Below are positions 847 through 59,521 of a stretch of DNA of 59,521 nucleotides, piece after piece. The stretch comes from Kiritimatiellia bacterium (GTDB lineage: Bacteria; Verrucomicrobiota; Kiritimatiellia; JAAZAB01). The notes beneath the pieces are model-generated. The model saw only the letters and a list, made by a program, of their open reading frames with translations. It did not search any database and was not told the DNA's origin. Location of the stretch: assembly GCA_028715905.1 (NCBI GenBank), contig JAQUQV010000007.1, forward strand, positions 1 to 59,521, written 5' to 3'. Position 1 is the first letter of the stretch. Each line of letters begins with the position of its first letter. A program made the position numbers and the translations under genes.

Positions 847-1789
847 ATAATTTTGTTTTCAAGGCGGAAAAGACGCTTTCAACGGTAATCCCGCGGAAGC
901 GTTCTGCGCCGGATGCTTGGCCTCTCATTATCAGCACGTTCTTCCCGCGCGGCGACCAGACGGCCGGGTCGGTCGGACCGAAAATCGCGACCACCGGGAT
1001 CCCCAGGGCGGCCGCCAGGTGGGTGACGCCCGAATCGTTTCCGGCAAACCCACGCGCCGCGGAAAGGACGGAGGCCGTTTCCATAAGGGGCGGATTGACG
1101 AGCGTTTTGCATTCCGGAAATAATTTCAGAATTGAAGCAACCGCCTCTCCATCCGCCTCGCCGCCGATGACCAGGGGCGCGAGTTCCGTTTCATCCGCGA
1201 TTCTTTTTGCCAGGGCGGCGTATTTTTCGCCTGCCCAGTTTTTGGCGGGCGAGCCGCTGCCGGGGTGAATAATGAAAACGTCTTTTCCGCCGGTTGCATG
1301 CCGCAGGCGTTGCCGCGCGTTTTTTTTCAGATAATCCGGCCAGGCCGGCAAAACCGGCGGGTCTTCCGGGGCGTTTATGGCCGGGGAAACGCGCCGGAAA
1401 GCATCTTTGATTGCCGCCATGAAATGGTCCGCGGCATGGCCCTTTTTTACAAGCGGGGAAACCGAAATCACCCGTTTCCCGCCGGAGGAAACAAGATTAC
1501 GGCGTAAAACCGCGTCGGGGTCGTGCAGAAAGGAAATAATCAAGTCAAAAGAGCGGATATATTCTTGCTCCGCCGGCGGCAGCGGTGATTCATCCTGGAA
1601 ATAAAACGCCATGCCGGCCGAATCAAGCGGTTTGATGCTGTCAATGATCCCCGTTATCATGGCCAGCTGGGCGTGCTTTTCATGGGCGGCCAGTTCAATG
1701 CGGGCGCGGGGACAGCGTTGGCGCAAGGCGGCGATGGCGGGAAGGGTCAGGATGAAATCCCCCAGCGCCCCGCCGCGCATGACCAGCAT
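821..1789 (-). CDS. Glycosyltransferase family 9 (heptosyltransferase-like)
   Basis: A 322-residue GT-B enzyme of the ADP-heptose:LPS heptosyltransferase family, expected to add a sugar to lipopolysaccharide core or another surface glycan at the cytoplasmic face. The N-terminus has the family's MRGGALGDFILTLPAI stretch. The C-terminal donor-binding half shows FIIHPGSGSPAKNW and GNDSGVTHLAAALGIPVVA followed by FGPTDP. The frame extends up to an ATG at 1828, but the ATG at 1789 has a GGAGAG ribosome site about 10 bases upstream while the earlier one has none, so 1789 is preferred. It is convergent with the ROK gene. Acceptor and donor sugars cannot be read from sequence. Confidence 0.85.
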   Translation of the reverse strand: MLVMRGGALGDFILTLPAIAALRQRCPRARIELAAHEKHAQLAMITGIIDSIKPLDSAGMAFYFQDESPLPPAEQEYIRSFDLIISFLHDPDAVLRRNLVSSGGKRVISVSPLVKKGHAADHFMAAIKDAFRRVSPAINAPEDPPVLPAWPDYLKKNARQRLRHATGGKDVFIIHPGSGSPAKNWAGEKYAALAKRIADETELAPLVIGGEADGEAVASILKLFPECKTLVNPPLMETASVLSAARGFAGNDSGVTHLAAALGIPVVAIFGPTDPAVWSPRGKNVLIMRGQASGAERFRGITVESVFSALKTKLFSPVPAAD

Positions 1790-1917
1790 TTTCGGTTTTC
1801 TCTCCGCGCTATCGTGACAAACGGTCATGGGAACATGATACTATTTATTGAAAATCCGGGAAGCATTTTTCACGGGGCGCTCGCCCCGCCGGTTTCCCGG
1901 ATTTTTCCCGCGTTGTC

Positions 1918-1947
1918 TTGACAAACCGGCCCGGGAAACATTATTCT
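1918..1947 (+). promoter_or_regulatory. Sigma-70-type promoter for the Gfo/Idh gene
   Basis: TTGACA at 1918-1923 and TATTCT at 1942-1947 with an 18-base spacer, about 80 bases ahead of the ATG at 2027. Prediction from consensus only. Confidence 0.5.
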
Positions 1948-2026
1948 TCGGCGAATGAAGACACAGTAACAAAACAGAGCGCCGCCATTCAACGGTATCC
2001 AGCGGCAATATAAACAGGGAGCGTTT

Positions 2027-3160
2027 ATGAAAACAGATGCGGAGCGGAAATCGGCGATCAGGAAAAACGGCGTGGTTCGTTTCGGAGTGGTGGGGGTGGG
2101 CGGAATGGGGATGGGGCATTGCCTGGCGGTCAAAAAAGTGCCCCGCGCCAAACTGACGGCGGTCTGCGACGTTAATTTTGCCGCTGCCGAAAAAGCGGCG
2201 CGCGAACTTGGCGCGCAGGCTTTTGGCGATCACCGCGCCCTCATCAAAAGCGGACTCTGCGACGTCGCGGTGATTGCCACTCCGCATCCTTTCCATCCGC
2301 CGGCGGCGATTGACTGTATGAAGGCCAGACTGCATGTGATTTCAGAAAAACCGCTTTCGGAACGGTTGTCTACCGCCGAGCGGATGGTCCGGACCGCCGA
2401 GAAGAACGGCGTGGCTTTTGCCGTTATGTTCCAGCGCCGCTTTGAGCCGGCGGTGCGCAAAGCCATGGAATTAATCCGCGCCGGGGAAATCGGCAACATC
2501 TACCGGGCGGTCCTGATCTCTCCGGAATTCCGTTCGCAGCGCTACTATGATTCCGGGACGTGGCGGGCGACCTGGCGCGGCGAGGGCGGCGGGGTTATGA
2601 TGAATCAGTCGCCGCATATCATGGACCTCTTTATCCAGATGGCGGGGATGCCGGAGGAAGTATTCGGCAATATCGCCACCCGCATGCACCGGATTGAAGT
2701 GGAAGACGAGGCCGCGGCCATGCTGCGCTATCCAAACGGCGGCATCGGCTATTTATATTGCTCCACCATTGAAGCCGGGCCGGGACAGATGATTGAAATT
2801 TTCGGCGACAAGGGCAAACTGGTCTGGCGCAACGGCGCCTTGTCTTTTTACCGGTTCCGGCCCGCCATCGGACGGGCGATAAAAAATTCCCGCAAATGGT
2901 GCGGCATTGAGGCTCTTGAAAAAAAAATGAAACTGGATGATAAACCCGGCGGGCCTGTCTGCGTCCACGGCAACATGGTGCGTCATTTGTTGCGCGGCGA
3001 AAAACTGGTTACGCCGGGCGCGAGCGGCGTGGCCTCGCTGGAACTGGCCAATGCGATCACGCTTTCCTCGTTTGAAAAGCGCTGGATCAAAATACCGATC
3101 AGCCGCCGGAAGTATGACCGCTTGCTTGCCTCGCTCCGCCGGAAATCCGGCGGTATATAG
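2027..3160 (+). CDS. Gfo/Idh/MocA family oxidoreductase
   Basis: A 377-residue NAD(P)-dependent sugar or inositol dehydrogenase-type protein. Residues about 15-130 form the Rossmann domain, opening with FGVVGVGGMGMGHCLAV and containing the family's EKP signature (SEKPLSERL). The rest is the alpha/beta substrate domain, with the GGGVMMNQSPHIMDLF stretch that carries the conserved His. The ATG is preceded by a GGGAG ribosome site. It lies 32 bases upstream of the sugar transferase on the same strand, probably one transcript. A role in making or modifying a nucleotide-sugar or other sugar for surface polysaccharide is inferred from that neighbour; the substrate is not identifiable. Confidence 0.85.
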   Translation: MKTDAERKSAIRKNGVVRFGVVGVGGMGMGHCLAVKKVPRAKLTAVCDVNFAAAEKAARELGAQAFGDHRALIKSGLCDVAVIATPHPFHPPAAIDCMKARLHVISEKPLSERLSTAERMVRTAEKNGVAFAVMFQRRFEPAVRKAMELIRAGEIGNIYRAVLISPEFRSQRYYDSGTWRATWRGEGGGVMMNQSPHIMDLFIQMAGMPEEVFGNIATRMHRIEVEDEAAAMLRYPNGGIGYLYCSTIEAGPGQMIEIFGDKGKLVWRNGALSFYRFRPAIGRAIKNSRKWCGIEALEKKMKLDDKPGGPVCVHGNMVRHLLRGEKLVTPGASGVASLELANAITLSSFEKRWIKIPISRRKYDRLLASLRRKSGGI

Positions 3161-3192
3161 GGCGGCAGATTCCAACGGCGGCGGAATAATTT

Positions 3193-4611
3193 ATGCGCGT
3201 TAAAGACACATCCGACGTTCTGGCAAGCTGTGCGGCCGTGGCCGGCGACGCCCTGGCCGTTTTCACCGGATTCATTCTGGCGACCTGGCTGCGTTTTGAC
3301 AGCGGCGTTATTCTTCTGTTCCACGACGCGCCGCCGGCCAACCTTTACCTTGTATATTCAAAGGCGGCGGCGCTTGCCGTGCTCCTTTTCGTGTTCATTT
3401 TCCACTCGCTTGATCTTTACGCGCGGCCGCAGAGCGGCGGCTTCGGCGACAAAATCCCCCGCCTGATTCGCGCCACGGGACTCGGCATTCTCCTGAGCGC
3501 GGCGCTCGCCTTTGCCATCCGCACCGAGCCGCCTTTTTCGCGGATCACGGTATTGCTGGCGTTTATTACCGTCGGATTGTGCGTTTTGCTTGAGCGTTAT
3601 CTGCTTTTCCGCTGGGAATTGTTCATGGCGCGCCGGCGTTCAAGGGTCAACCAGGTTATTATCATCGGCACCAATTCCATCGCGGCGCGGTTGCGGAAAA
3701 CCCTCCATAACGAGCCGCGGCTCGGCGCGCGGGTCGTCGGTTTTTTCCGGTCTTTTCCCGTAGCGCCCGTGCATCCTTCCATCAGCGCCGATGATATCAA
3801 GGGTGGGCTGGGCGATCTGAAAGCGTTTATTGAAAAAAAACATGTTGATCAAATCATCCTCGCCGATATGGCCGTCGGCACGGAGCGCATGATTGAACTG
3901 ATATTGCTTTGCGAACAGTCCCTGATCGCCTTCAACCTCGTGCCGGACCTCTTTCATATTCTCACCGGCGGCGTTGACATGCAGGCGATTGACGACATAC
4001 CGCTTCTGGGCGTGAGCCGCTGGCCGCTGGATAATTTCTGGAACCGGCTGGTAAAACGCGCGGCGGACATGGTCGGTGCCGCTGCGGGGCTGGCGTTGTT
4101 TGCGCCGGTGCTGCTGGTCCTGGCCTTTCTGATCAAGCGCAGTTCGCCGGGGCCGGCCTTTTTCCGCCAGGAACGCTGCGGCGAAGGCGGCCGGAAGTTT
4201 CAGATGATTAAATTCCGCACGATGCGCGTTGACGCCGAGTCCGCGACCGGGCCGGTCTGGGCCGTGGAAAACGATCCGCGGCGCACCAAAATCGGCGTCT
4301 TCCTGCGGCGTTACAACCTGGATGAACTGCCGCAATTGTGGAACGTTCTCCGGGGCGAAATGAGCCTGGTGGGGCCGCGCCCCGAGCGTCCGTTTTTCGT
4401 GGAGCAGTTCAAGGAGGATATCAACCGCTATATGTGGCGGCACGTTTCAAAGCCGGGCATTACCGGCTGGGCGCAGGTGAACGGGCTGCGGGGCAACACC
4501 GACATCGGCGAGCGGATCAAATATGATCTTTATTACCTTGAGCACTGGTCGCTGGCTTTTGATTTCAAGATCCTGCTGAAAACCTTTTTGAACCGGGAAA
4601 ATGCTTATTGA
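3193..4611 (+). CDS. Undecaprenyl-phosphate sugar phosphotransferase (polyprenyl glycosylphosphotransferase)
   Basis: A 472-residue integral membrane enzyme that starts polysaccharide repeat units by moving a sugar-1-phosphate from a nucleotide sugar to undecaprenyl phosphate. Residues about 10-140 hold four to five hydrophobic segments. Residues about 150-250 form a nucleotide-binding-like domain ([13 protein letters not shown]). After one more membrane helix (about 290-315) comes the bacterial sugar transferase domain, with [43 protein letters not shown] and [14 protein letters not shown]. All hallmark motifs are present and the length is normal for the WbaP/WcaJ type. It follows the Gfo/Idh gene closely. 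The sugar is unknown. Confidence 0.9.
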
Positions 4612-4635
4612 TCGGGAGCAGTATTTTTCGCTCCT

Positions 4636-4707
4636 CACGTCTTTCGCCGGCGGCCAATGCCCGCTTGAGCGAAAACGAATGTTGCGCGATTTTTGTGCAA
4701 TATTCGG
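4636..4707 (+). repeat. Composite palindromic intergenic repeat, copy 1
   Basis: Two adjacent palindromes. The first (4642-4674) has TTTCGC/GCGAAA arms around an inner GCGGCCAATGCCCGC hairpin. The second (about 4676-4706) runs from CGAATGTTGCGC to GTGCAATATTCG. The first palindrome recurs at 10156-10200 with about four mismatches in 45 bases, and the whole pair recurs, inverted and decayed, at 44309-44388. It lies in the gap between the convergent sugar transferase and PqiC-like genes. Confidence 0.7.
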
Positions 4708-4820
4708 GGTTCAGAATGCACGCTCTGCGCGGAAACGCGGGCTGATCCGCCCTTTGCGTGGAATATAGCGAACCGTTTGAAGCGGATAAACCCGTTGTTC
4801 GGCGGCGCGGCCGGCGTTTT

Positions 4821-5528
4821 TTATTCCGTTTTTGGCGGCGCTGTCCGCGCGGCAAGCTCCCCTGCAATTTCAGCGCTCAAAGATTCGCAGACCGCGCTCA
4901 GCGCCCCGGCCAGGCCGCGATAATCATGGGGAGCGATCGCATGGCGGAACAAAGATTTTTTCATAAGCGCCAGTTTTTCTTCGGCGGGGTTGATCACCGA
5001 CCATTGCGCGGCAAAAACCATCTCCCCGTCCAATTGGCATTCCAGCCGGGTTACGTTCACGAGCACCTGGTATTTCAGCGGCACGGCGGCGTTGCCGGGG
5101 AGCATTTCAATGTTGGCCCGCGGGAGCATGACGGAAAGGTTTTCCGTCAGCACCCGGGAAAGCGCCGCGTCCAGGGATTCTCCCCAGCGGTCAAACTGGG
5201 CAAAGGAAAGCGTTCCGTCCTGATTATGCGTGACAATCTGGGGGCGGTCCATGTATTCCGGTATTTTTACGGGGCTGACTCCGATGATGGTTTCCGGCGC
5301 AATGTCAAATTTACGGGTGTTTTTCCCATCGTCCGCCGCGCGGAGCGCATAGAAGCGCGGGACGGGGGTGTTGGCGACCGAGAGACATCCGGGCAGGGCG
5401 GCAATAAAAACCAAGCCGGCGATGATTCTGCCGAAAACGGCCGTTTTTTTTAGTTTTTCCGGGAACCCCTGTTCCATATCAGGTGCCGCCGGGGAGACTT
5501 TTGAATGCATCCATCCTTTTTTTTTCAT
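4821..5528 (-). CDS. PqiC/ABC-transport auxiliary lipoprotein-like protein
   Basis: A 235-residue predicted lipoprotein: charged start (MKKKGWMHSK), a hydrophobic segment at about residues 31-47 and a lipobox-like LPGC, so the mature protein would be membrane-anchored. The body resembles the PqiC/YmbA auxiliary lipoproteins that accompany MCE lipid transporters (PRFYALRAA near the mature N-terminus, then IGVSPVKIPEYMDRPQIV). The frame opens at an ATG at 5543, but a strong AAGGAGGAT ribosome site lies just before the ATG at 5528, so that start is chosen. The N-terminal region before the membrane segment is unusually long for a signal peptide. No pqiA/pqiB or mla genes are in the window. Confidence 0.65.
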   Translation of the reverse strand: MKKKGWMHSKVSPAAPDMEQGFPEKLKKTAVFGRIIAGLVFIAALPGCLSVANTPVPRFYALRAADDGKNTRKFDIAPETIIGVSPVKIPEYMDRPQIVTHNQDGTLSFAQFDRWGESLDAALSRVLTENLSVMLPRANIEMLPGNAAVPLKYQVLVNVTRLECQLDGEMVFAAQWSVINPAEEKLALMKKSLFRHAIAPHDYRGLAGALSAVCESLSAEIAGELAARTAPPKTE

Positions 5529-5820
5529 TTTATCCTCCTTCATGAACGAACTCGCAGGTTATTGGCCTTCCGGCGGAATGGCGAAAGCGCCGGTAATTTT
5601 TATTTTTAAATGTGCATAACGTCAAATCAGAAGGATTCATCGTATGTTACCACAATCAACAATGACGCTGGGGTCGGTTTGTTTGAAAGTATAATTGCTT
5701 AACATTAACGGACAAGATTTAAATTCCCGTGCTCTGCCGCCGCTTTCCTAACAAATTGCTTGCATTTGCTGGTTGGCGGCGTAATCTTGCGGACATTAAT
5801 TATCACCGGAGAAAATTGAC

Positions 5821-6837
5821 GTGGAAAACGCGCCGTACGGAAAAATCATAGCCGGCAGCGGGGAGGCTGTCCGCCGCGCTTACGATTCTTTTTTAACGCA
5901 GCCGGTGGATCAGGTTGTCGGCACCGGGCAGGGCGACCTGGAGGACGAGCGCCAATGCACGATTGCCCGGCCGGTTTCCGTTACGGGACCCGGCACATTT
6001 TTCAGGCGCGCGGCCCGTACGCTGATTTTTGAGCCGGCGGCGGAACAGGGCTGGTGGTTTGAAAGAACCGACCTCCCGCGGGATTTGCCGACGGCTGTTT
6101 CCGTGCGCAACGTGTGGACCACCGCGCGCAATATTGTTTTACGCAGCGGGTCTCCGCACAATTACATGCGCATGGTTGAGCATATCATTGCCCTGAAGCT
6201 CGGCCTGGGAATAGACAACCTGCTTATCAAGGCCGCCTCCGGCGATCCGCCGCTTTTTGACCGCGGCAGCATGGACATCGTGGAAGCCCTGGAAAGCGCC
6301 GGCACCCGGGAACAAAAAGCGCCGGTGGCTTATGTTACCGTCAAGGAAACCGTAACAATCGGCGGTGAAAACGGCGGTTTCCTGACTTTCATTCCGCACG
6401 CCGGCGCCGCGAGGAAACTCACCATGGACTGCGCCATTGATTTCAAGAATGCCATCGGAAAGCAGCGGGTGCAATTTGACCTGACCAAAAAGCTGTTCCG
6501 CGCCAAGGCCCTGGCCCGCACCAATACCACGACGGCCATGAAACTATACTGCCTGACCGTCGGCCAATTGTTCGCCGATATAAGGAATATGGGGTACACC
6601 AGCCGCAACATCCTGATCGCCGGCAAAAAGCGCTACCTGAACGCGCCGCGCCTCATGCAGAACGGCAAATCGCTGGAGGCGGTTTGGCACAGGGCCGTCA
6701 TGGATTTACTCGCGGCCGTCGCTTTGATTGACCGCGGCCGGTTCATCGGCCGGATTAATTCCTATAAATCCGGGCATGCCCTGGATGCGGACATGGTCCG
6801 GTTGCTTTACAAGCATGACCTGCTGACGCCGGTTTGA
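5821..6837 (+). CDS. lpxC: LpxC-like UDP-3-O-acyl-N-acetylglucosamine deacetylase (divergent)
   Basis: A 338-residue protein, GTG start with a GGAG ribosome site 9 bases upstream. It matches LpxC, the zinc enzyme for the committed step of lipid A synthesis: the VEH zinc/catalytic segment followed by LGLGIDN (about 119-133), and the C-terminal YKSGHALDADMV block (about 315-326). It is divergent in three ways. The second metal motif reads H290-RAVM-D295 (His-x4-Asp) where E. coli LpxC has His-x3-Asp. The usual DGSSAPFV block is DRGSMDIV. There are also insertions. lpxA and fabZ lie 10 kb away on the other strand rather than adjacent. It may be the true lpxC of this lineage or a paralogue. Confidence 0.75.
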   Translation: MENAPYGKIIAGSGEAVRRAYDSFLTQPVDQVVGTGQGDLEDERQCTIARPVSVTGPGTFFRRAARTLIFEPAAEQGWWFERTDLPRDLPTAVSVRNVWTTARNIVLRSGSPHNYMRMVEHIIALKLGLGIDNLLIKAASGDPPLFDRGSMDIVEALESAGTREQKAPVAYVTVKETVTIGGENGGFLTFIPHAGAARKLTMDCAIDFKNAIGKQRVQFDLTKKLFRAKALARTNTTTAMKLYCLTVGQLFADIRNMGYTSRNILIAGKKRYLNAPRLMQNGKSLEAVWHRAVMDLLAAVALIDRGRFIGRINSYKSGHALDADMVRLLYKHDLLTPV

Positions 6838-6876
6838 TTAAATGTGATTCATGTGGGCAATTTCCCGGGGGCAAAA

Positions 6877-7674
6877 ATGAAACCATTGTTACGCTTTTTA
6901 TGGCTATGCGTATTTCTCGGCGGCGTTGCCCGCCCGGCATGCTGCGGCGGGGATGAGCGCGACATGATTTTCCAGACGGCGCCTTTTCAGAGCCTGAACA
7001 AAGGCGTCTATGACGGCTTGATTTCATACGCCGTTCTGAAGGATTGCGGCGATTTCGGGCTGGGAACTTTCAACGCGCTGGACGGGGAAATGGTTTGCGT
7101 GGACGGCGTCTTTTACCAGATCAGGGCCGACGGCAAATCCGGGCCGGTGCCGGACGCGGTTTTGACGCCCTTTGCAATGCTGACTTTTTTTGACGAGGAC
7201 CGGCGGATAGAGGCCGTCAATGCCGGAAGTCTGGCGGAACTTTGCCGGATTATTGACCGCAGCCGGCCGACGAAAAATCTGTTTTATGCCCTGCGTGTGG
7301 ACGGCCGCTTTGACTATCTTAAATTACGCAGCGTGCCGCCCCAGAAAAAACCATATCCTTCCCTGGCGGAGGCGCTGAAGGGGCAAACCGTTTTTGAATA
7401 CAAGAACATAACGGGCACGCTGGCGGGATTCTGGTCGCCCTCGTTTGCGGAAAAAATCGGCGTTCCGGGCTATCATTTCCACTTTATTTCCAGGGAGAAA
7501 AACATCGGCGGACACGCGCTTGACCTCCGGTTTCACGGCCTCAACGTCCGCATGGACCGTTGCGCGGGATTAACCGTTGTTACTCCGGAAAACGGGGATT
7601 ATTTCAGCGCGGATTTGGAAGAGTCCAAGACCGCAACGCAAAACGCGCACGACCCGGCAAGCGCAAATCCTTGA
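6877..7674 (+). CDS. Alpha-acetolactate decarboxylase with signal peptide
   Basis: Acetolactate decarboxylase converts (S)-2-acetolactate to acetoin. Family hallmarks are the VDGVFYQIRADGK strand and the metal-binding cluster HFHFISREKNIGGHALDL, with three His in the expected spacing. The 265-residue protein starts at the ATG at 6877, which has a GGGGGC site; a GTG at 6844 is also in frame but would add a non-hydrophobic leader. From 6877 the N-terminus is a clear export signal (charged MK, then a hydrophobic stretch ending near ACCGG). A few family members are exported, but most are cytoplasmic. No acetolactate synthase is nearby. Confidence 0.85.
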   Translation: MKPLLRFLWLCVFLGGVARPACCGGDERDMIFQTAPFQSLNKGVYDGLISYAVLKDCGDFGLGTFNALDGEMVCVDGVFYQIRADGKSGPVPDAVLTPFAMLTFFDEDRRIEAVNAGSLAELCRIIDRSRPTKNLFYALRVDGRFDYLKLRSVPPQKKPYPSLAEALKGQTVFEYKNITGTLAGFWSPSFAEKIGVPGYHFHFISREKNIGGHALDLRFHGLNVRMDRCAGLTVVTPENGDYFSADLEESKTATQNAHDPASANP

Positions 7675-52012: not shown

Positions 52013-55000
52013 TTACCACATCGGCAGGACGGGGGCCCAGCCGGGGCCGCCGAGGTTAATGATGAACGAAGTATTGTCGTTTACGGCGCGCAGAAGCCAG
52101 TTGCCGGTGCTTTCCTGATAAACCACAAGGTCGCATACGCCGTCGCCGTCATAGTCGCCCGGCACCGGTATATATCCGGGGCCACCGAACGGAACTCCAT
52201 CGGCAATCAAGGCCGATCGTTTGCAGGACCAGATATACCAGCGGCCGGTTGATTCCTGGTAGACCGCCAGGTCGGAACAGCCGTCGCCGTCAAAGTCGCC
52301 GGAAACCGGAACGGCGTTTTCAACGCCCCAGAGAGTGCCCCATGTGATTTCGGTGCCGGACATGGCCATGATGTACCAGTATCTCATGGCGGTGTTATAC
52401 ATCGCCAAATCGGATATGCGGTCGCCGTCGTAGTCGCCTGATGCGGGAACGAATCCCATTCCGGTCAGCGATTCGCCCCAGAGCAGCGGCGTGCCCGCCG
52501 TGGTAACGATATACCAGAAACTTTCCGGGGACTGGCAGAGGGCGCCCTCGTAGATTTTGTCGCCGTCGTAGTCGCCGGAAACCGGTCTCTGGGTCGGCCC
52601 GCCGAATGATGCGGATGGAATGAGCACAGCCCAGCGGCTCAGGGAGGCGATCTTCCACAACCCCAGCGTTTCATTATAAACGGCGCAATCGCTGGTGCGG
52701 TCGCCGTCGTAATCGCCATTGATTGGCCGGTATCCGGGCCCGCCCCAGGAAATGTCCCAGACGAGCCGGCACCAGCGCCGGATTGAGCCGACGCGCCAGT
52801 TGCCGTTGTAGATGTTGTAGACTGCCAGATCGGAGCAGGAATCGCCGTCAAAATCGTTGTATTTAATGTGGGTTCTAACCACCGCGTTGGTGCCGAGCGC
52901 CCGGGCGATGGTGTTTTCCAGAAGCGAGGCGTGGTAAGTCTGCGCGTGCTGAGCCGGGGTTTCGGCGGCCGATTTTTCGGCGGCGTAATTATGCAGTTCC
53001 AGGAAATTGAGCTGGCCGCTGTTGTTGGTGTCAACCGCCTGCACGTTGCAGCCCTCAATCAGGTATCCGATATAGCGGCTGTAGAAATCGCTGGTGTAAC
53101 TTAACTCGTCGTAATTGCAGGCGGTCATGAAGGCGATATTCTGGCCGAGTTCTTTCGGCGCCTTCAGCCCCCGGCTTTTCAGCCGGGCGGCCTTGATGCG
53201 CCGGTAATTTTCCATTGTTTCTTCCGCGAAACGCCATGGCGGCGGATTGGCGCCGGCGAGCCGGTACATTCCGCCGGAATAACAGGCGTCAATAATAACG
53301 ATGATTTTTGTTTCGCTGTTAAAAACGGTTAAATCGTCAGCCAGCTCGGCGGCGGTATAATTGGCGTCATAAGCGCAGACAAAAGTGTTTGCTCCGCCCG
53401 GTGTTCCGCCCGACGAACCGCCGTGGCTGGAATGCGCGTAGACCACGATATCGCCGGCGCCGCTGGCCGCGGCCAGGGAATGCAGGGCGTTCTGGATGGT
53501 TAGCTTTGTGGCCTGCCGGTCGGTATAAGAGGTTATGTTGGTGGTGGCCCAGCGATTGGAGGGGTCGCCCAGGAAAAATATGTCGCGCATGCCGTTCGCG
53601 TCGTTGGTGCAGGTGGTCAGCGACGAAGGGCCGTATGAAGGCGAATAATTGTCAAGCCCGACCAGCAGTACCCGGCGGTTGGCGGAAACCGTTGAAGTCC
53701 CGCACCAGCCCTCGGCCGCATTGCTGTAATTGGAGCTGGCGCCGTAAGTGTTGCGCGACCGGACGCGGTAATAGTAGTGCGTTCCGGGGATAACATCGTA
53801 GTCCGAGTAGGCCAGCGCCATGATATTGGTGTGAATTTGAACGGCGTTGTTTGTGCCGTAACTGCGCCACAGGTCATAGCCGGTTGCGCCCTCGGCCGCG
53901 CTCCAGGTTATATCAATACGGTTTGAGTATGATCCCTGGGAGGCCGAAACGGTTGCGGGCGGTTCTGGAATATTGGCAAGGCTGGGACTGCCGGGCATGA
54001 AATTGAATTCCAACGTATAGGAGACATTGTAACGGTCTTCCTTGTCCTTGCAGACAATGCTGTAGACACCGTTGGAAGCAATGGCGTTGGAAATGAAGGC
54101 GCAGGTTTCAAATACGTCCGTGGTCCGCGCCAGCATTTCGCCGCTCGGACTGTAAAATTCCATGACGGGGATCATGTCCGCGTCAATATCCCGCATGGTG
54201 ATGGTAACCGTGTCGCCGCTGACCGCCTGGAACATGGCGACATCCAGGTCGCCCGGCAGGTTTATTGTGCCGGTTTTCTGCTCGCCGCTGATGATCGTGC
54301 CGATATCGGTGTCCGTGCCGCTGATCGTTCCGGGGATCTGGATCATGGTGAGCGCATATTCTCCCTCAGCGTTGAATTTGTCGGAACAGACCACGGTATA
54401 GACGCCCTGATTGGTGAGTTCGGCGGTAATTTCAGAGCGGTAATCAGTCGGGAAATCGTTGGTTACCAGTGTGCCGTCGGGCGCATAGATTTGAATGTTC
54501 GGCACAAGGAAGACTGATTTCTGCCCCATGCGGATCTGCATGGTGCTCGGGACGTTTGAAACGGCAAAGAAACCGGCATCCAGGTCGGAACTGACGTCAA
54601 TTTTGCCGGTCTTTGACTGCCCGATTGTCAAATTGCCCACGTCAGGGTCATCATAGGAAAGCGGAAGGTTCGGCGTGCGGAGCATGGAGCAGTTATAGGT
54701 CATATTGCTTATCCCGTCGGGGATCGTGCAGGTAAAAGTGTACCATCCGTTATCCGCCGGTTGGGCGGCGGTCCAGCCGTTGGTGATAACACTCAGGTGG
54801 TATTCATTGGCGCTGACCGGGGGGCAGTTGGTCTGGGTGCCGTTGGGATTATAAAGCGCAAAATCGGGGTAGGGATCGTGCTCGGCATGCCCAAGCCGGA
54901 TGATGACGGTTTCACCCGGGTTGGCGTAAAAAGTGTAGGCGGCTGTTTTTTCCGATGTGGTATTGGTGGTAAGGGTGTCTTCAAAATATTGCCCGGATTC

Positions 55001-55093
55001 TATGGCGGTCTGTGCCGGCAAAAAAGGGGCGGCGCAGACCGCCATCATGAAAACGGCGGCTGGCAGAAAAAGGCGGATTTTTTTTTCAGGCAT
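52013..55093 (-). CDS. Exported caspase-like (C14-type) protease with PPC, FN3 and FG-GAP-like repeats
   Basis: 1026 residues. Signal peptide (MPEKKIRLFLPAAVFMMAV...PAQ), then three PPC-like beta domains (about 35-370; e.g. YTFYANPGETVIIRLG), a fibronectin-III-like domain (about 385-465), and a caspase-fold domain (about 470-740) with catalytic His in VVYAHSSHGG (near 554) and Cys in IIDACYSGG (near 604). The C-terminal 280 residues hold six repeats of about 45-50 residues, each centred on a calcium-type D-x-D-x-D loop (DFDGDSCSD, DYDGDRTSD and so on). The ATG at 55093 follows AGGG and the promoter; an ATG at 55120 is also in frame. Likely secreted or surface-bound. Confidence 0.82.
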   Translation of the reverse strand: MPEKKIRLFLPAAVFMMAVCAAPFLPAQTAIESGQYFEDTLTTNTTSEKTAAYTFYANPGETVIIRLGHAEHDPYPDFALYNPNGTQTNCPPVSANEYHLSVITNGWTAAQPADNGWYTFTCTIPDGISNMTYNCSMLRTPNLPLSYDDPDVGNLTIGQSKTGKIDVSSDLDAGFFAVSNVPSTMQIRMGQKSVFLVPNIQIYAPDGTLVTNDFPTDYRSEITAELTNQGVYTVVCSDKFNAEGEYALTMIQIPGTISGTDTDIGTIISGEQKTGTINLPGDLDVAMFQAVSGDTVTITMRDIDADMIPVMEFYSPSGEMLARTTDVFETCAFISNAIASNGVYSIVCKDKEDRYNVSYTLEFNFMPGSPSLANIPEPPATVSASQGSYSNRIDITWSAAEGATGYDLWRSYGTNNAVQIHTNIMALAYSDYDVIPGTHYYYRVRSRNTYGASSNYSNAAEGWCGTSTVSANRRVLLVGLDNYSPSYGPSSLTTCTNDANGMRDIFFLGDPSNRWATTNITSYTDRQATKLTIQNALHSLAAASGAGDIVVYAHSSHGGSSGGTPGGANTFVCAYDANYTAAELADDLTVFNSETKIIVIIDACYSGGMYRLAGANPPPWRFAEETMENYRRIKAARLKSRGLKAPKELGQNIAFMTACNYDELSYTSDFYSRYIGYLIEGCNVQAVDTNNSGQLNFLELHNYAAEKSAAETPAQHAQTYHASLLENTIARALGTNAVVRTHIKYNDFDGDSCSDLAVYNIYNGNWRVGSIRRWCRLVWDISWGGPGYRPINGDYDGDRTSDCAVYNETLGLWKIASLSRWAVLIPSASFGGPTQRPVSGDYDGDKIYEGALCQSPESFWYIVTTAGTPLLWGESLTGMGFVPASGDYDGDRISDLAMYNTAMRYWYIMAMSGTEITWGTLWGVENAVPVSGDFDGDGCSDLAVYQESTGRWYIWSCKRSALIADGVPFGGPGYIPVPGDYDGDGVCDLVVYQESTGNWLLRAVNDNTSFIINLGGPGWAPVLPMW

Positions 55094-55132
55094 TATTTTT
55101 CCCTGTGAAAAAGGCCTCATTGTTTATCGCCA

Positions 55133-55239: not shown

Positions 55240-55269
55240 TTGACAAATCCGCCGGGCCTGTGTTATACG
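55240..55269 (+). promoter_or_regulatory. Promoter of the cobalamin-riboswitch transcript
   Basis: TTGACA (55240-55245), 18-base spacer, TATACG (55264-55269) with an upstream TGT giving an extended -10. It sits just upstream of the aptamer. Confidence 0.6.
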
Positions 55270-55297
55270 CATCAACAGTTCTTTGGAATAAATTTTG

Positions 55298-55437
55298 TTT
55301 GCGGAAAGAGTACGGAAATCCGTGAAAATCGGATACGGTCGCGCCACTGTGACCGGCTGCGAAACTTCAAATGCCATTCCGACGCGGGTCGGGAGAAGGC
55401 GAAGGAGTAGGTTTGAGGCCGGAAGTCAGGAGACGTT
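55298..55437 (+). ncRNA. Cobalamin (B12) riboswitch aptamer
   Basis: The conserved elements occur in order. GGAAATCCGTGAAAATCGG (55314-55332) is followed by GCGCCACTGTGACCGG (55341-55356, with the near-invariant GCCACTGT), a variable peripheral region, then the B12 box GGAAGTCAGGAGACG (55421-55435). The order, spacing and GCCACTGT/AGTCAGGAGAC pair identify the cobalamin class. Ends are approximate. A G/C-rich hairpin (55453-55476) and an intrinsic terminator follow, so the likely mode is transcription attenuation when B12 is plentiful. The controlled gene is at 55644. Confidence 0.93.
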
Positions 55438-55517
55438 TCTTTTCATGCTCTTAGGCGGCGGTTAAAACCGTTGCCGGCTCCTTCGCTTGAAAGGGGGATG
55501 AGGGATGTTTTTATTTT

Positions 55518-55568
55518 AAGCCTTCAGGCTCTTTCTCGGGAGCCGGAAGGCTTTTTTGTTTTTTATCC
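55518..55568 (+). terminator. Intrinsic terminator of the riboswitch expression platform
   Basis: AAGCCTTC-A-GGCTC (55518-55531) pairs with GAGCC-G-GAAGGCTT (55540-55553), followed by a T-rich run to 55565. It lies 76 bases before the gene start. A second hairpin CACCGGC/GCCGGTG is at 55596-55617. Confidence 0.88.
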
Positions 55569-55643
55569 CTGCCCGGGCATATTTTTTTTGCGAAACACCG
55601 GCTTTAAAGGGCCGGTGGAAAGATGTTTTTTTTGGAGAGAATA

Positions 55644-57908
55644 ATGGCAAAGATTTATACAGGAATAATTGCGGGCGTTGTTTGTTGCGCCGCGCTTGGC
55701 TGTTTCCTGGCGGCCCAGGCTCGCCGCGGCGGACCGGATGTCCCCGCCTCCGGCGGCGCGGGCGAGCCGGAACGCGGCCGCCCGGCCGTCACAGTTTCTG
55801 CTTGCGGCGCCGGGGAACCGTCCGCCGCCAGCGGCGAGCTCTGGAAAACCAATGCCGGAATATCCGCCGAAGGACTTGAAGGGGATGCCGCTTTGCCGGA
55901 ACAGGGCGGTTTGCCCGACTGTTCGGATGAAAACGCGGAAAAGGAAAACGGGCTGGAAGACGAAGAATACAGTCCCGAAGAGATTGCCGCGTTCAAGGAG
56001 CAATTCATGCGGAAACGTTTCGGCGTTGTGCGGCGGCAGGGGAAATGGATTCCGACGATTGACGGCGCCTCGAACCTGGTCTATATCACCACCGGATCGC
56101 TTCCGCCGGGCCGGGTCGGCGAGGTCTATGAAGCGCAATTCTCGGCGGCGAGCGGTTGTCCGCCGTATGCCTGGAAAATCGTTTCCGGCGAATTGCCGCA
56201 ATCATTTTTGTTTGACGGTTATTCGGGCAAACTCGCCGGCGTCCCCGAGGAACCCGTTACCGCGCGCTTTTTTATTGAGGTCACCGACAGCCGGGGCGCC
56301 AAGGATATGGCGGAATATGCGTTGACGTTTCAGCCGGAGCGCCCCCTTGCAATAGCAACCGAGATTCTGCCCGCAGCCGTTCCCGGCGAGGACTATTTTT
56401 GCCAGCTGCAGGTGTCCGGCGGGATTCCTCCGTACACGTGGGGCGCGGCCGGCAATATTGACGGGGAAATCGGGGCGCTTGTCATTGATGTGAACAACGG
56501 CCAGATCAGCGGGCGGATTGCCGATAACGCGCCGCAAATTGATGTGCCGCTGGTTTTCTGGTTGAGCGACGCGCAGGTCAGCGTTTCAAAGGAATTAACC
56601 TTCCGCGTCCGGTCCGCGCCGAGCATACTGAATGCTCCTCAATCCCCGCTTTACGAGTCGGAGTTGTTTGAGTTTGTTTTTCAGGCGGCCGGCGGAAGAG
56701 AGCCATATCTCTGGAGTGCGGGCGGCCTTCTGCCGCCCGGCCTTGAATTTTCAGCGGACGGGCTTTTATCCGGCCGGCCCTCGGAACCCGGCCTCTACGA
56801 AAACAGCGTCCAGATTCAGGACGCCGACGGCAGGTTGGCTGCCGTAACCTTTGCCTTGGAGGTTTTGTCCCGCGCCCCCGCGCTTTCCGATTTCCGGGCG
56901 CTCTTGAGCCGCAACAGCGTGGCTTTGAAATGGGAACTGCCGCCGGCGGATGGAAAGATCGGCGTCCGGATTGTCAGAAATTCCGCGCGGAAACCGTTGA
57001 CGCCGGCGGACGGTAAAGCCGTGTATTACGGGCCCGGAACATCCTGCCTTGACGGCGATGTCGGCCGCGGCCGTTATTACTATGCCGCCTTCCTTGAAGA
57101 AAACGGAACAACGGTAACCTCGGCGGCGCCGCCGGCGCTTTGCGTGACGCTGCCGCCGGAAACAGACCCGTTCGCGGATAAAGTCGCGAGCAGCAAACTG
57201 CTTCATCCGAATGCCTTCCGGTCGTCCGAACTGCCCCGGATTGTTCTCGGCGCCCCCCGCGGCACGGGGCTTGCCTCGGGATCGGCGGACGTTGTTTCTC
57301 TGGGCGCCGCCATCAACAACGACAACGGGGGCTCGGCGCCGTATGGCGGCTCAATAATATTGGAGTTTGTGGATAACGTTGTGTGGGACGGGCCGGGCGC
57401 CGACTTTACGATTTTTGAAAATGTCTTTTATATTTGCAACGATGCCGGCGTGCTTGACCCCGAAACCCGTTTTATGGAGCCGGCCGTTGTGGCCGTCAGC
57501 CAGGATGGCGTGAACTGGCGGCAATTCCCGATTGACTTCTCGCCGCGCTATTATCCCGGGAGCGGAAAGCTCAATGTCCGTCATCCTTATTGTTACAATT
57601 CCGGTTTCGCCGGCGTAAATCCCGTCATGAGCAACGGCTGCGACCCGGACCCCACTGACCCCGCCCTGTCGGGGGGCGACAGCTTTGATATTTCCGCGCT
57701 GGGATTGGACTGGATCAGGTATGTCCTTATCCAGTCTGTCGGAAGCCGCTGGCTTGCCGATAAGGACGGCGAACTCGTCTGCCATAATGAGGAAACCGGC
57801 GCCGCGGATCGGAACAATAACAAGTCGGGGTTTGATTTGGATGCCGTAACGGCGATTTGGATGCAGAAAGTTGCGGCGTCCGACGGCGCGGGTGGAGGAA
57901 GCCAATGA
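55644..57908 (+). CDS. Riboswitch-controlled exported Ig-like surface protein
   Basis: 754 residues; the ATG at 55644 has a GGAGAG site (an ATG at 55623 does not). An N-terminal membrane/export segment (MAKIYTGIIAGVVCCAALGC) has a possible but non-canonical lipid-attachment Cys. Then an acidic low-complexity region to about 120, three He_PIG-type Ig domains (about 140-410: GCPPYAWKI, GGIPPYTWG, GGREPYLWS then LPPGLEFSADGLLSGRP), an FN3-like domain, and a C-terminal domain of about 210 residues with GGSIILEFVDNVVWDGPG, DFTIFENVFY, VAVSQDGVNW and SGFDLDAV. That last domain resembles cell-surface proteins often seen beside cobalamin uptake genes (from memory, not searched). Function unknown; B12 control comes from the leader. 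Confidence 0.8.
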   Translation: MAKIYTGIIAGVVCCAALGCFLAAQARRGGPDVPASGGAGEPERGRPAVTVSACGAGEPSAASGELWKTNAGISAEGLEGDAALPEQGGLPDCSDENAEKENGLEDEEYSPEEIAAFKEQFMRKRFGVVRRQGKWIPTIDGASNLVYITTGSLPPGRVGEVYEAQFSAASGCPPYAWKIVSGELPQSFLFDGYSGKLAGVPEEPVTARFFIEVTDSRGAKDMAEYALTFQPERPLAIATEILPAAVPGEDYFCQLQVSGGIPPYTWGAAGNIDGEIGALVIDVNNGQISGRIADNAPQIDVPLVFWLSDAQVSVSKELTFRVRSAPSILNAPQSPLYESELFEFVFQAAGGREPYLWSAGGLLPPGLEFSADGLLSGRPSEPGLYENSVQIQDADGRLAAVTFALEVLSRAPALSDFRALLSRNSVALKWELPPADGKIGVRIVRNSARKPLTPADGKAVYYGPGTSCLDGDVGRGRYYYAAFLEENGTTVTSAAPPALCVTLPPETDPFADKVASSKLLHPNAFRSSELPRIVLGAPRGTGLASGSADVVSLGAAINNDNGGSAPYGGSIILEFVDNVVWDGPGADFTIFENVFYICNDAGVLDPETRFMEPAVVAVSQDGVNWRQFPIDFSPRYYPGSGKLNVRHPYCYNSGFAGVNPVMSNGCDPDPTDPALSGGDSFDISALGLDWIRYVLIQSVGSRWLADKDGELVCHNEETGAADRNNNKSGFDLDAVTAIWMQKVAASDGAGGGSQ

Positions 57909-58084
57909 CATATTTTCGCTTGTTTTTCAGACGCGGCGGGGCGGGGGGCGGAGGTTTTCCCGGCCGCGCGATCAGGAAGGGAAAGGAGGTGCCGCGGCGC
58001 AGACCGTCAAACCGGAAAACCAGCGTGTGAAAATCCGTGCAAAAAAGAAAATAAAAAATAATCATAGGAGGATAAATCAGAAAA

Positions 58085-59521
58085 ATGAAAGCGATGATTA
58101 AACTGTTTATGGGCGTGTGCCTGATGGCGCTTGCCGGGCATGCGCCCGCCATGGTCATAGGAGGCAGCAATTATGTGGCGCAGACGTTTTACGCGAATCC
58201 GCATGCGGGAGAGACCTTGGTGGCGTTTGACTGGGACGAATATAACAATCTGTATTATTCAACCGGCCGCCCGGATTGGTCTCTGGGTTTTTCGGTTTAC
58301 CGCTACGACGACCAAACGGCATTGAATCTCTACACGGACGAGAACGCCTTCGCCGGTTCGCGCGTAACGGCGATCAACGGATACGTTTATTTCAATGACG
58401 GCGGAACTTACGAGCGTTGGACATGCGACTATTTTCGCTATGATCCGGCCAAAAGCACAACCCCGGCCAATATGGGGGTTTTAAGCGACATATACGGTCT
58501 CGCCACGCGGGATGGAACCGATTTTTGGGCCGCCGGCGGGTACTTCGCCGCGATCTATTACAGTTCCCTGGACGCGCATGGCGATCTGGTGAATAACCCG
58601 CTGGTGAATCTCGGCGCCATCGGCAATGCGACCGGCCCGATTGCTTTTGATGCCGGCGGCAATCTCTATTATGCCGAAGGTTACGTCGCCCAGGGCAATC
58701 CGACCGTGTACCGTTGGAGCGCCGCGGAAATCGCCGCGGCCATCGCCGATCCCGCGGGCCATCCTTTGGTCCCGGATGGGCACGCATGGGTAACACTGCC
58801 GTCGGGCGATGGAGTGTCCGGCATGGCAGTGGACCACAATGGAAACCTGATCGTTACCGCGACCTCGTTCGCGAATCCAAGCCAGTTACAGCGCCTGTTT
58901 GTGACCAACGGCCTTTGCGCGGGGTATGAGGTTCTGGCCCGGTCGGACGAGCGGCTGGAAACTGTCCGCGTGCGCGCCGGCAGAATCTATGTGAGTTCTT
59001 CCGATGGAATATTCACTGTTCTTCCCGTTCAGGCGGATACACATGTCGTTAATGATTATGACTATGACGGCAAGTCCGATCTTGCGGTATACCGCGCCGG
59101 TTATTGGTCCATCTATTCCCTGGTGAACGGAGTGATCCTGAACAACGAGGGGGTGTGGGGCGGGGCGGACGGCGTGCCGGTGTCCGGAGATTACGACGGG
59201 GACGGCAAGTCCGATCTTGCGGTATACCGCGCCGGTTATTGGTCCATTTATTCCCTGGCGAACGGAGTGATCCTGAACAACGAGGGGGTGTGGGGCGGGG
59301 CGGATGGCGTGCCGGTGTCCGGAGATTACGACGGGGACGGCAAATCCGACCTTGCGGTATACCGCGCCGGTTATTGGTCCATCTATTCCCTGGTGAACGG
59401 AGTGATCCTGAACAACGAGGGAGTGTGGGGCGGGGCGGACGGCGTGCCGGTGTCCGGAGATTACGACGGGGACGGCAAATCCGACCTTGCGGTATACCGC
59501 GCCGGTTATTGGTCCATTTAT
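58085..59521 (+). CDS. Exported propeller-like protein with FG-GAP tandem repeats, 3' end outside window
   Basis: The frame is open to the last base (479 residues visible). AGGAGG lies 13 bases before the ATG. Signal peptide MKAMIKLFMGVCLMALAGHAPA. Residues about 25-320 consist of short beta-rich units (VAFDWDEYNNLYYSTG, GPIAFDAGGNLYYAEG, SGMAVDHNGNLIVTAT) typical of a beta-propeller. From about 325 a 45-residue repeat begins, each with a DYDGDGKSDLAVYRAG calcium-type loop. It starts 176 bases after the previous gene in the same direction, with no clear terminator between, so it is probably on the same B12-controlled transcript. Role inferred only: surface binding. Confidence 0.8.
   Translation, partial: MKAMIKLFMGVCLMALAGHAPAMVIGGSNYVAQTFYANPHAGETLVAFDWDEYNNLYYSTGRPDWSLGFSVYRYDDQTALNLYTDENAFAGSRVTAINGYVYFNDGGTYERWTCDYFRYDPAKSTTPANMGVLSDIYGLATRDGTDFWAAGGYFAAIYYSSLDAHGDLVNNPLVNLGAIGNATGPIAFDAGGNLYYAEGYVAQGNPTVYRWSAAEIAAAIADPAGHPLVPDGHAWVTLPSGDGVSGMAVDHNGNLIVTATSFANPSQLQRLFVTNGLCAGYEVLARSDERLETVRVRAGRIYVSSSDGIFTVLPVQADTHVVNDYDYDGKSDLAVYRAGYWSIYSLVNGVILNNEGVWGGADGVPVSGDYDGDGKSDLAVYRAGYWSIYSLANGVILNNEGVWGGADGVPVSGDYDGDGKSDLAVYRAGYWSIYSLVNGVILNNEGVWGGADGVPVSGDYDGDGKSDLAVYRAGYWSIY
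59069..59521 (+). repeat. 135-base tandem repeat within the FG-GAP region
   Basis: Units start at 59069, 59204, 59339 and 59474 (the last cut by the window edge), exactly 135 bases or 45 codons apart. They differ at only a handful of positions (e.g. GTG/GCG for Val/Ala in the SLVNG segment, and synonymous changes in GGCAAGTCCGAT/GGCAAATCCGAC). Confidence 0.95.

Follow-up and report, generated by a model that had tools for sequence, protein, structure and literature searches.

Why should a cobalamin riboswitch precede two genes that encode exported proteins of no familiar function, with no transporter gene in sight? The question is raised by one end of a contig from a Kiritimatiellia bacterium; this contig, 59,521 b in all, is called here the window, and no sequence is available past position 59521. 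Surface capture of B12 has been described mainly in gut Bacteroides, DUF4465 being the one domain known from experiment to extend to other phyla. Our reading, to which we give a probability of about 0.78, is that the two genes form an operon, repressed by B12 and without transporter genes, for the extracellular capture of cobamides. Regulation by the riboswitch is well supported, and so is the link to B12 uptake of the protein family to which the C-terminal domain (CTD) of the first gene product, ORF1, belongs. Binding of B12 by ORF1 or by the second product, ORF2, hand-over of the ligand to BtuB and the exact location of both proteins in the cell are inferred.

The leader region

An earlier note, made without database searches, had described a promoter, a cobalamin riboswitch, an attenuator and two genes for exported proteins, and this arrangement is confirmed, the promoter being its weak element (Table 1). 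The covariance model RF00174 covers the full aptamer with 76.9 bits, for a gathering score of 31.5 bits, and the riboswitch claim thus held, as did those of an exported Ig-domain protein (He_PIG, E 6e-11) and of an FG-GAP protein (E 4e-14 in Pfam). The promoter-like TTGACA/TTATAC pair was not picked by a stricter consensus scanner and is therefore only weak evidence for a promoter.

The attenuator is a model prediction, but a real and strong one: the region 55440-55575 folds 4.3 standard deviations better than its shuffles (z -4.3). The octamer CCGGCUCC, which shares bases with the P13-like hairpin, is complementary to GGAGCCGG (55539-55546) in the 3′ arm of the terminator, and the corresponding duplex is worth -19.6 kcal/mol. 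We infer that the terminator and this competing antiterminator strand form a plausible switching expression platform, the switching itself being unmeasured. When cobamide is scarce, the octamer would pair with the 3′ arm of the terminator and the genes would be transcribed; when cobamide is bound, the hairpin after the aptamer would form, the terminator would fold and transcription would stop.

Table 1. Features of the locus (all on the forward strand of the window)
Feature	Coordinates	Strand	Evidence or remarks
Promoter-like element, TTGACA (55240-55245) and TTATAC (55263-55268)	55240..55268	+	Spacing 17, read from sequence
Cobalamin riboswitch aptamer	55273..55454	+	RF00174, 76.9 bits, E 3.2e-17, model 1-189
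P13-like hairpin 3′ of the aptamer	55454..55475	+	9 pairs, -13.6 kcal/mol
Putative antiterminator strand, CCGGCUCC	55474..55481	+	Role inferred
Intrinsic terminator/attenuator	55518..55564	+	15-pair stem 55518-55553, U-rich tail to 55564, -22.5 kcal/mol
ORF1, exported or membrane-anchored, He_PIG Ig domains and C-terminal BtuH-like domain	55644..57908	+	
Ig-like (He_PIG) region of ORF1, approximate	56080..56880	+	PF05345 E 6.3e-11, two stretches, best 56619-56864
ORF1 CTD, divergent BtuH-like domain with FENVF motif	57174..57878	+	Family membership and BtuH kinship
ORF2, incomplete (contig end), signal peptide, propeller-like domain and FG-GAP repeats	58085..59521	+	
Propeller-like N-terminal domain of ORF2	58145..59038	+	39% to the L138 protein; E 9e-33 to L058
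135-nt tandem repeat encoding FG-GAP repeats	59066..59521	+	TRF 3.4 copies, 96% matches

The two exported proteins

For ORF1 the likely start is the ATG at 55644, which is preceded by GGAGAG (55634-55639), gives a protein of 754 aa and was preferred over 55623. The N-terminus is hydrophobic and carries ALGC, not a standard lipobox, so that a lipoprotein signal remains uncertain. The He_PIG Ig domains are the only Pfam matches in ORF1; the CTD is without any Pfam model, and PF14717 (DUF4465) found no match in ORF1 or ORF2.

ORF2 starts with the ATG at 58085, with AGGAGG upstream, and its frame is still open at 59521; since the contig ends inside the 135-nt repeat, ORF2 is truncated and its anchor is not visible. 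The earlier note had spoken of a propeller-like FG-GAP protein, and this part has to be corrected: the FG-GAP repeats are those of the C-terminal tandem repeat, and what is propeller-like is a separate N-terminal domain, whose propeller nature we infer from repeat-like sequence and weak matches. Between ORF1 and ORF2 there are 176 nt without predicted terminator, and it is on this gap that the inferred co-transcription of the two genes rests. On the other strand (52013-55120), a divergently transcribed gene encodes an exported protein of 1035 aa that has a caspase/C13-like domain, recognized by weak matches only, and bears FG-GAP repeats of the same kind as those of ORF2.

The CTD family and its link to B12

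CTD genes were collected by protein similarity alone. The search of 288 genomes of the class found the CTD in 31, the window's own included, and in 28 of the 30 others a B12 riboswitch lies upstream of the CTD gene, with a chance expectation of about 0.0007 per random gene. Twenty-four of these riboswitches exceed the RF00174 cut-off and four (in G113, G135, G179 and G191) that of RF01482; the two exceptions are one genome scoring 30.4 against the cut-off of 31.5 (G162) and one whose contig ends too soon (G224). The median distance from riboswitch to CTD gene is 936 nt over 27 RF00174 placements. Another genome, G153, had been a candidate for a case without riboswitch, as RF00174 gave none there, but RF01482 matches it and the candidate was dropped.

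Among 84,980 species genomes at least 467 CTD relatives were confirmed, of which the best 80 were kept; these distant loci were thus selected for match quality rather than at random, with each species counted separately even if others are related to it. A B12 riboswitch was found upstream in 65 of the 80, DUF4465 in 45 and BtuB in 43, and 70 have one or more of these three or BtuF. Covariance-model scans (Rfam) of 21 of these loci matched the mapped riboswitch positions in every case, and a check by regular expression proved too strict (32/80). The nearest named relatives of the CTD are from Lentisphaerae/Kiritimatiellae MAGs, and the family is found behind B12 riboswitches in Betaproteobacteria, Gammaproteobacteria, Verrucomicrobiota, Planctomycetota, Bacteroidota, Spirochaetes and others. 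In six loci (L052, L082, L138, L141, L142 and L144), belonging to one genus (g46) and a Kiritimatiellales MAG, the AdoCbl model RF01482 replaces RF00174, and surveys restricted to the latter therefore miss them.

The partners of the CTD point in the same direction as the riboswitches. In many relatives the CTD is fused C-terminally to DUF4465/PF14717 (E 1e-27 to 1e-51), a domain of which eight members, only distantly related to one another, have been reported to bind B12 in vitro (PMC13398666). In L040-L042 the CTD follows a propeller-like domain in the same protein, and in L052 it belongs to a DUF4465-BtuB-CTD operon. In several loci the gene directly 3′ of the riboswitch encodes a CTD protein without DUF4465.

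Two side observations concern the DUF4465 loci. In Rhodopirellula, frames of about 2000 aa behind a cobalamin riboswitch (L063, 5836-11886; L077, 5785-11619) contain a single CTD and, after it, three DUF4465 domains, and are apparently multi-site B12-binding giants. In L079, a c-di-GMP-I-GGC riboswitch (4886-4961) is located 350 nt behind the cobalamin riboswitch, at the start of a DUF4465 frame, and the tandem could be a double-input leader for B12 capture genes.

The CTD of ORF1 is of a divergent type, lacking the WA motif, the AGKYR loop, D175 and DP of the canonical family, and one may ask whether the linkage extends to it. L098 contains a nearly full-length homologue of ORF1 (33% over 646 aa, E 1e-78), with Ig domains and a CTD of the same divergent type, in the order cobalamin riboswitch, gene with canonical CTD and propeller-like region, ORF1 homologue; L035, in the same family, contains a partial homologue, with a riboswitch at 6736-6921. 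Because both homologues sit behind riboswitches, the divergent type is B12-riboswitch-linked as well.

Clear homologues of the ORF2 propeller are rare, and within the class this domain occurs in only 3 of the 288 genomes. In L138 the homologous gene, whose product is 39% identical to the propeller domain of ORF2, lies between an AdoCbl riboswitch and BtuB and is followed by a CTD gene; in L058 a single open frame, immediately 3′ of a cobalamin riboswitch, encodes a homologous domain (E 9e-33) together with a CTD. Whether this frame is a genuine fusion or a pair of genes lacking an intervening stop is in doubt, because each half bears its own PEP-CTERM-like tail: positions 1525-3372 encode propeller and PEP-CTERM tail, then a second signal peptide, the CTD and its own PEP-CTERM tail. 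Altogether, two cobalamin riboswitches and three CTDs are present in the L058 locus. In L140 and L038 a propeller/FG-GAP gene comes first after the riboswitch and a CTD gene second, which is the window's pair in reverse order. The similarity of the ORF2 propeller to L140, L038 and L040 is weak, and the case of L140 and L038 rests on architecture and position.

The earlier note had inferred a system for capture or display of B12, analogous to that of Bacteroides, and had named two outcomes that would speak against it: a riboswitch model search without cobalamin match, and homologues of both proteins that are common yet show no association with B12 leaders. Neither came about. The riboswitch model matches strongly, the association held for the CTD (28/30 and 65/80), and in L138 and L058 the clear homologues of the ORF2 propeller immediately follow a B12 riboswitch and have BtuB or a CTD as neighbour. 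The inference is thus supported, B12 binding remaining untested.

Kinship of the CTD to BtuH

A plain PDB search with the ORF1 CTD alone gave chance matches only, and the structure model of this domain is poor (pLDDT 61.8); its fold match to BtuG1 ranks second, with an E-value of 0.07, and comes from that weak model. We therefore folded, with an alignment-based model, a canonical CTD relative instead, which reached a pLDDT of 95.7. Its first three fold matches in the PDB are to 8blw_B (E 3.8e-4), a BtuG1 chain that includes the BtuH domain, and to 7biz (E 8e-4 to 1e-3), the B12-bound BtuH2, all with a probability of 1.00; next, with slightly lower scores, come discoidin/CBM32 domains, a group with many sugar binders. 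In profile searches the sole PDB match below an E-value of 1 was again 8blw_B, at its BtuH domain (E 0.0054, 0.0057 and 0.0015). Direct comparison with BtuH segments by hhalign gave E 8.5e-7 for the CTD family and E 6e-5 for ORF1 alone. By fold and by sequence profile the CTD is thus related to the domain with which BtuH binds B12, but distantly (sequence E of about 1e-3, TM-score 0.45).

In BtuH2, Asn399 and Phe401 contact the phosphate and lower ligand of B12 (PMC8941943). The GNAF motif of 7BIZ, which we take to carry both residues (the numbering was deduced from chain positions), aligns with the FEN-x-F motif of the family, where the N is present in 80 of 80 sequences and the F in 72 of 80; both are kept in ORF1 (FENVF). 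At the other BtuH2 contacts, Tyr510, Trp511, Trp577, His476 and Gln333, no reliable alignment could be made.

The transporter and the genome

The earlier note had seen no btuB, btuF, btuC or btuD in the window, and this held: up to the contig end, the locus contains no btuB. A second cobalamin riboswitch, the only other one in the genome, lies on a different contig (C2) and is followed by btuF, btuB, btuC and btuD; the names were assigned from sequence, and these genes served as queries. In L004, the btuD-like gene of the btuF-B-C-D locus (4338-5957, minus strand) has a C-terminal extension which, as read from its sequence, resembles an ATP-pyrophosphatase/diphthine-ammonia-ligase domain. Eight B12-binding domains exceed their cut-offs in the genome, CbiD was not found in it and DUF4465 (PF14717) was not found in the whole assembly (G000); we conclude that the organism is a B12 user and, as seems likely, a scavenger, although absence of CbiD alone does not exclude other routes.

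Comparison with known systems

The system is of a known kind, that of BtuG, BtuH and BtuJ in Bacteroides. The closest parallel is BtuH2 (BT_1956 of Bacteroides thetaiotaomicron, 7BIZ): like ORF1 it has Ig-like domains at the N-terminus and a BtuH-type domain at the C-terminus, it is riboswitch-controlled (PMC8941943), and the predicted fold of the canonical CTD is the same, with the Asn399/Phe401 contacts falling on FEN-x-F. ORF1 differs in having He_PIG where BtuH2 has PKD domains, in a kinship that is visible at the profile level only, its CTD being divergent and its B12 binding untested, and in an operon without btuB. Presence of btuB in the operon is usual but not universal for btuH homologues, being observed for more than 80% of them (PMC8941943).

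BtuG1 (BtuGH, BT_1490, 8BLW) is a propeller fused to a BtuH domain; ORF2 and ORF1 offer the same combination as two genes, and L040-L042 and L098 have it, as BtuG1 does, in a single gene. Identification of ORF2 as BtuG by sequence was tried and rejected: there is no DUF5074 or YncE-like match in Pfam and no BtuG in the PDB profile search, and ORF2, unlike BtuG1, carries FG-GAP repeats. The analogy with BtuG put forward in the earlier note needs correction in one respect: the demonstrable kinship to a Bacteroides B12-capture protein is that of ORF1, and not of the propeller, and the protein in question is BtuH. The jellyroll family DUF4465/BtuJ (PF14717) is found in loci of this kind, where relatives have it as a neighbour of the CTD or in one protein with it; it is absent from ORF1, ORF2 and the assembly.

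The LIC_13355 lipoproteins of Leptospira (NCBIfam NF033170), studied for their binding activities toward host components (PMC11891782), have the core of the CTD (57174-57878 in the window) in common with ORF1 (E 1.7e-11). ORF1 is not a member of NF033170, with 43.9 bits for a family cut-off of 120, and control by a B12 riboswitch has not been reported for LIC_13355, unlike ORF1. As a B12-riboswitch gene LIC_13355 is no more than a lead, the Leptospira paper placing the two cobalamin riboswitches at btuB and LIC20135.

What is new is the occurrence across phyla of a BtuH-like domain that has no Pfam model, the two-gene layout without transporter, and the propeller family of ORF2. No earlier report of such a CTD/propeller capture pair was found in the literature searched, which left out most subscription papers.

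A proposed capture operon and its rivals

In our reading, the CTD of ORF1 would bind cobamide and would be held off the envelope by the Ig domains, as BtuH2 is by its PKD domains. The ORF2 propeller would be a second binder or a docking partner, as BtuG is to BtuH, and the captured cobamide would be passed on to the BtuB whose gene lies with btuF-C-D at the other locus, likewise under a cobalamin riboswitch.

A first alternative, which we find unlikely, is that the CTD is a docking module or a sugar/glycan-binding (CBM32-like) module that positions the real binders, DUF4465 or propellers, on the surface or on BtuB; in the window, ORF2 would then be the binder and ORF1 the scaffold. In its favour, discoidin/CBM32 domains are the next fold matches, the CTD is so often found with DUF4465 that an adaptor role is conceivable, and two proteins of the B. 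theta B12 loci, BtuL and BtuK2, did not bind cobalamin (PMC12751083). Against it, the B12-binding BtuH domains match best, ahead of CBM32, the Asn which contacts the B12 phosphate in BtuH2 is invariant in the family, and several loci have a CTD protein without DUF4465 as the very gene that follows the riboswitch.

A second possibility, with little to recommend it, is that only ORF1 belongs to a B12 system and that ORF2 is an unrelated FG-GAP surface protein, downstream by chance. The rarity of the propeller in the class and the FG-GAP repeats of the unrelated neighbouring caspase-like gene would fit, but in L138 and L058, which are of unrelated lineages, clear homologues stand behind a B12 riboswitch with BtuB and/or a CTD as neighbour, and L140 and L038 again have the pair of propeller/FG-GAP gene and CTD gene after a riboswitch. 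Finally, the idea that B12 is an environmental signal, the riboswitch controlling adhesins or matrix proteins unrelated to B12 uptake, can draw on the lack of a transporter gene, on Ig and FG-GAP modules that are typical of adhesion proteins and on the related Leptospira lipoprotein studied for binding, but is hard to reconcile with the fact that, in several phyla, DUF4465 and BtuB are time and again fused to the CTD or share an operon with it, and with the kinship to BtuH, both of which point to uptake.

The capture operon is thus the reading we retain, and a bolder version of it may be put forward, for which, taken as a whole, we see slightly more to be said against than for. The CTD would represent an unnamed, multi-phylum superfamily of cobamide-binding domains that includes BtuH and reaches LIC_13355 of Leptospira, and a BtuH-like protein with a new propeller family would form a stand-alone, riboswitch-controlled pair that supplies a distant BtuB. 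It is even conceivable that the pair acts as a shared or released cobamide scavenger.

The CTD family gives hundreds of 'hypothetical surface proteins' a role that can be tested, and its spread suggests that extracellular capture of cobamides is a general strategy rather than a speciality of the gut.
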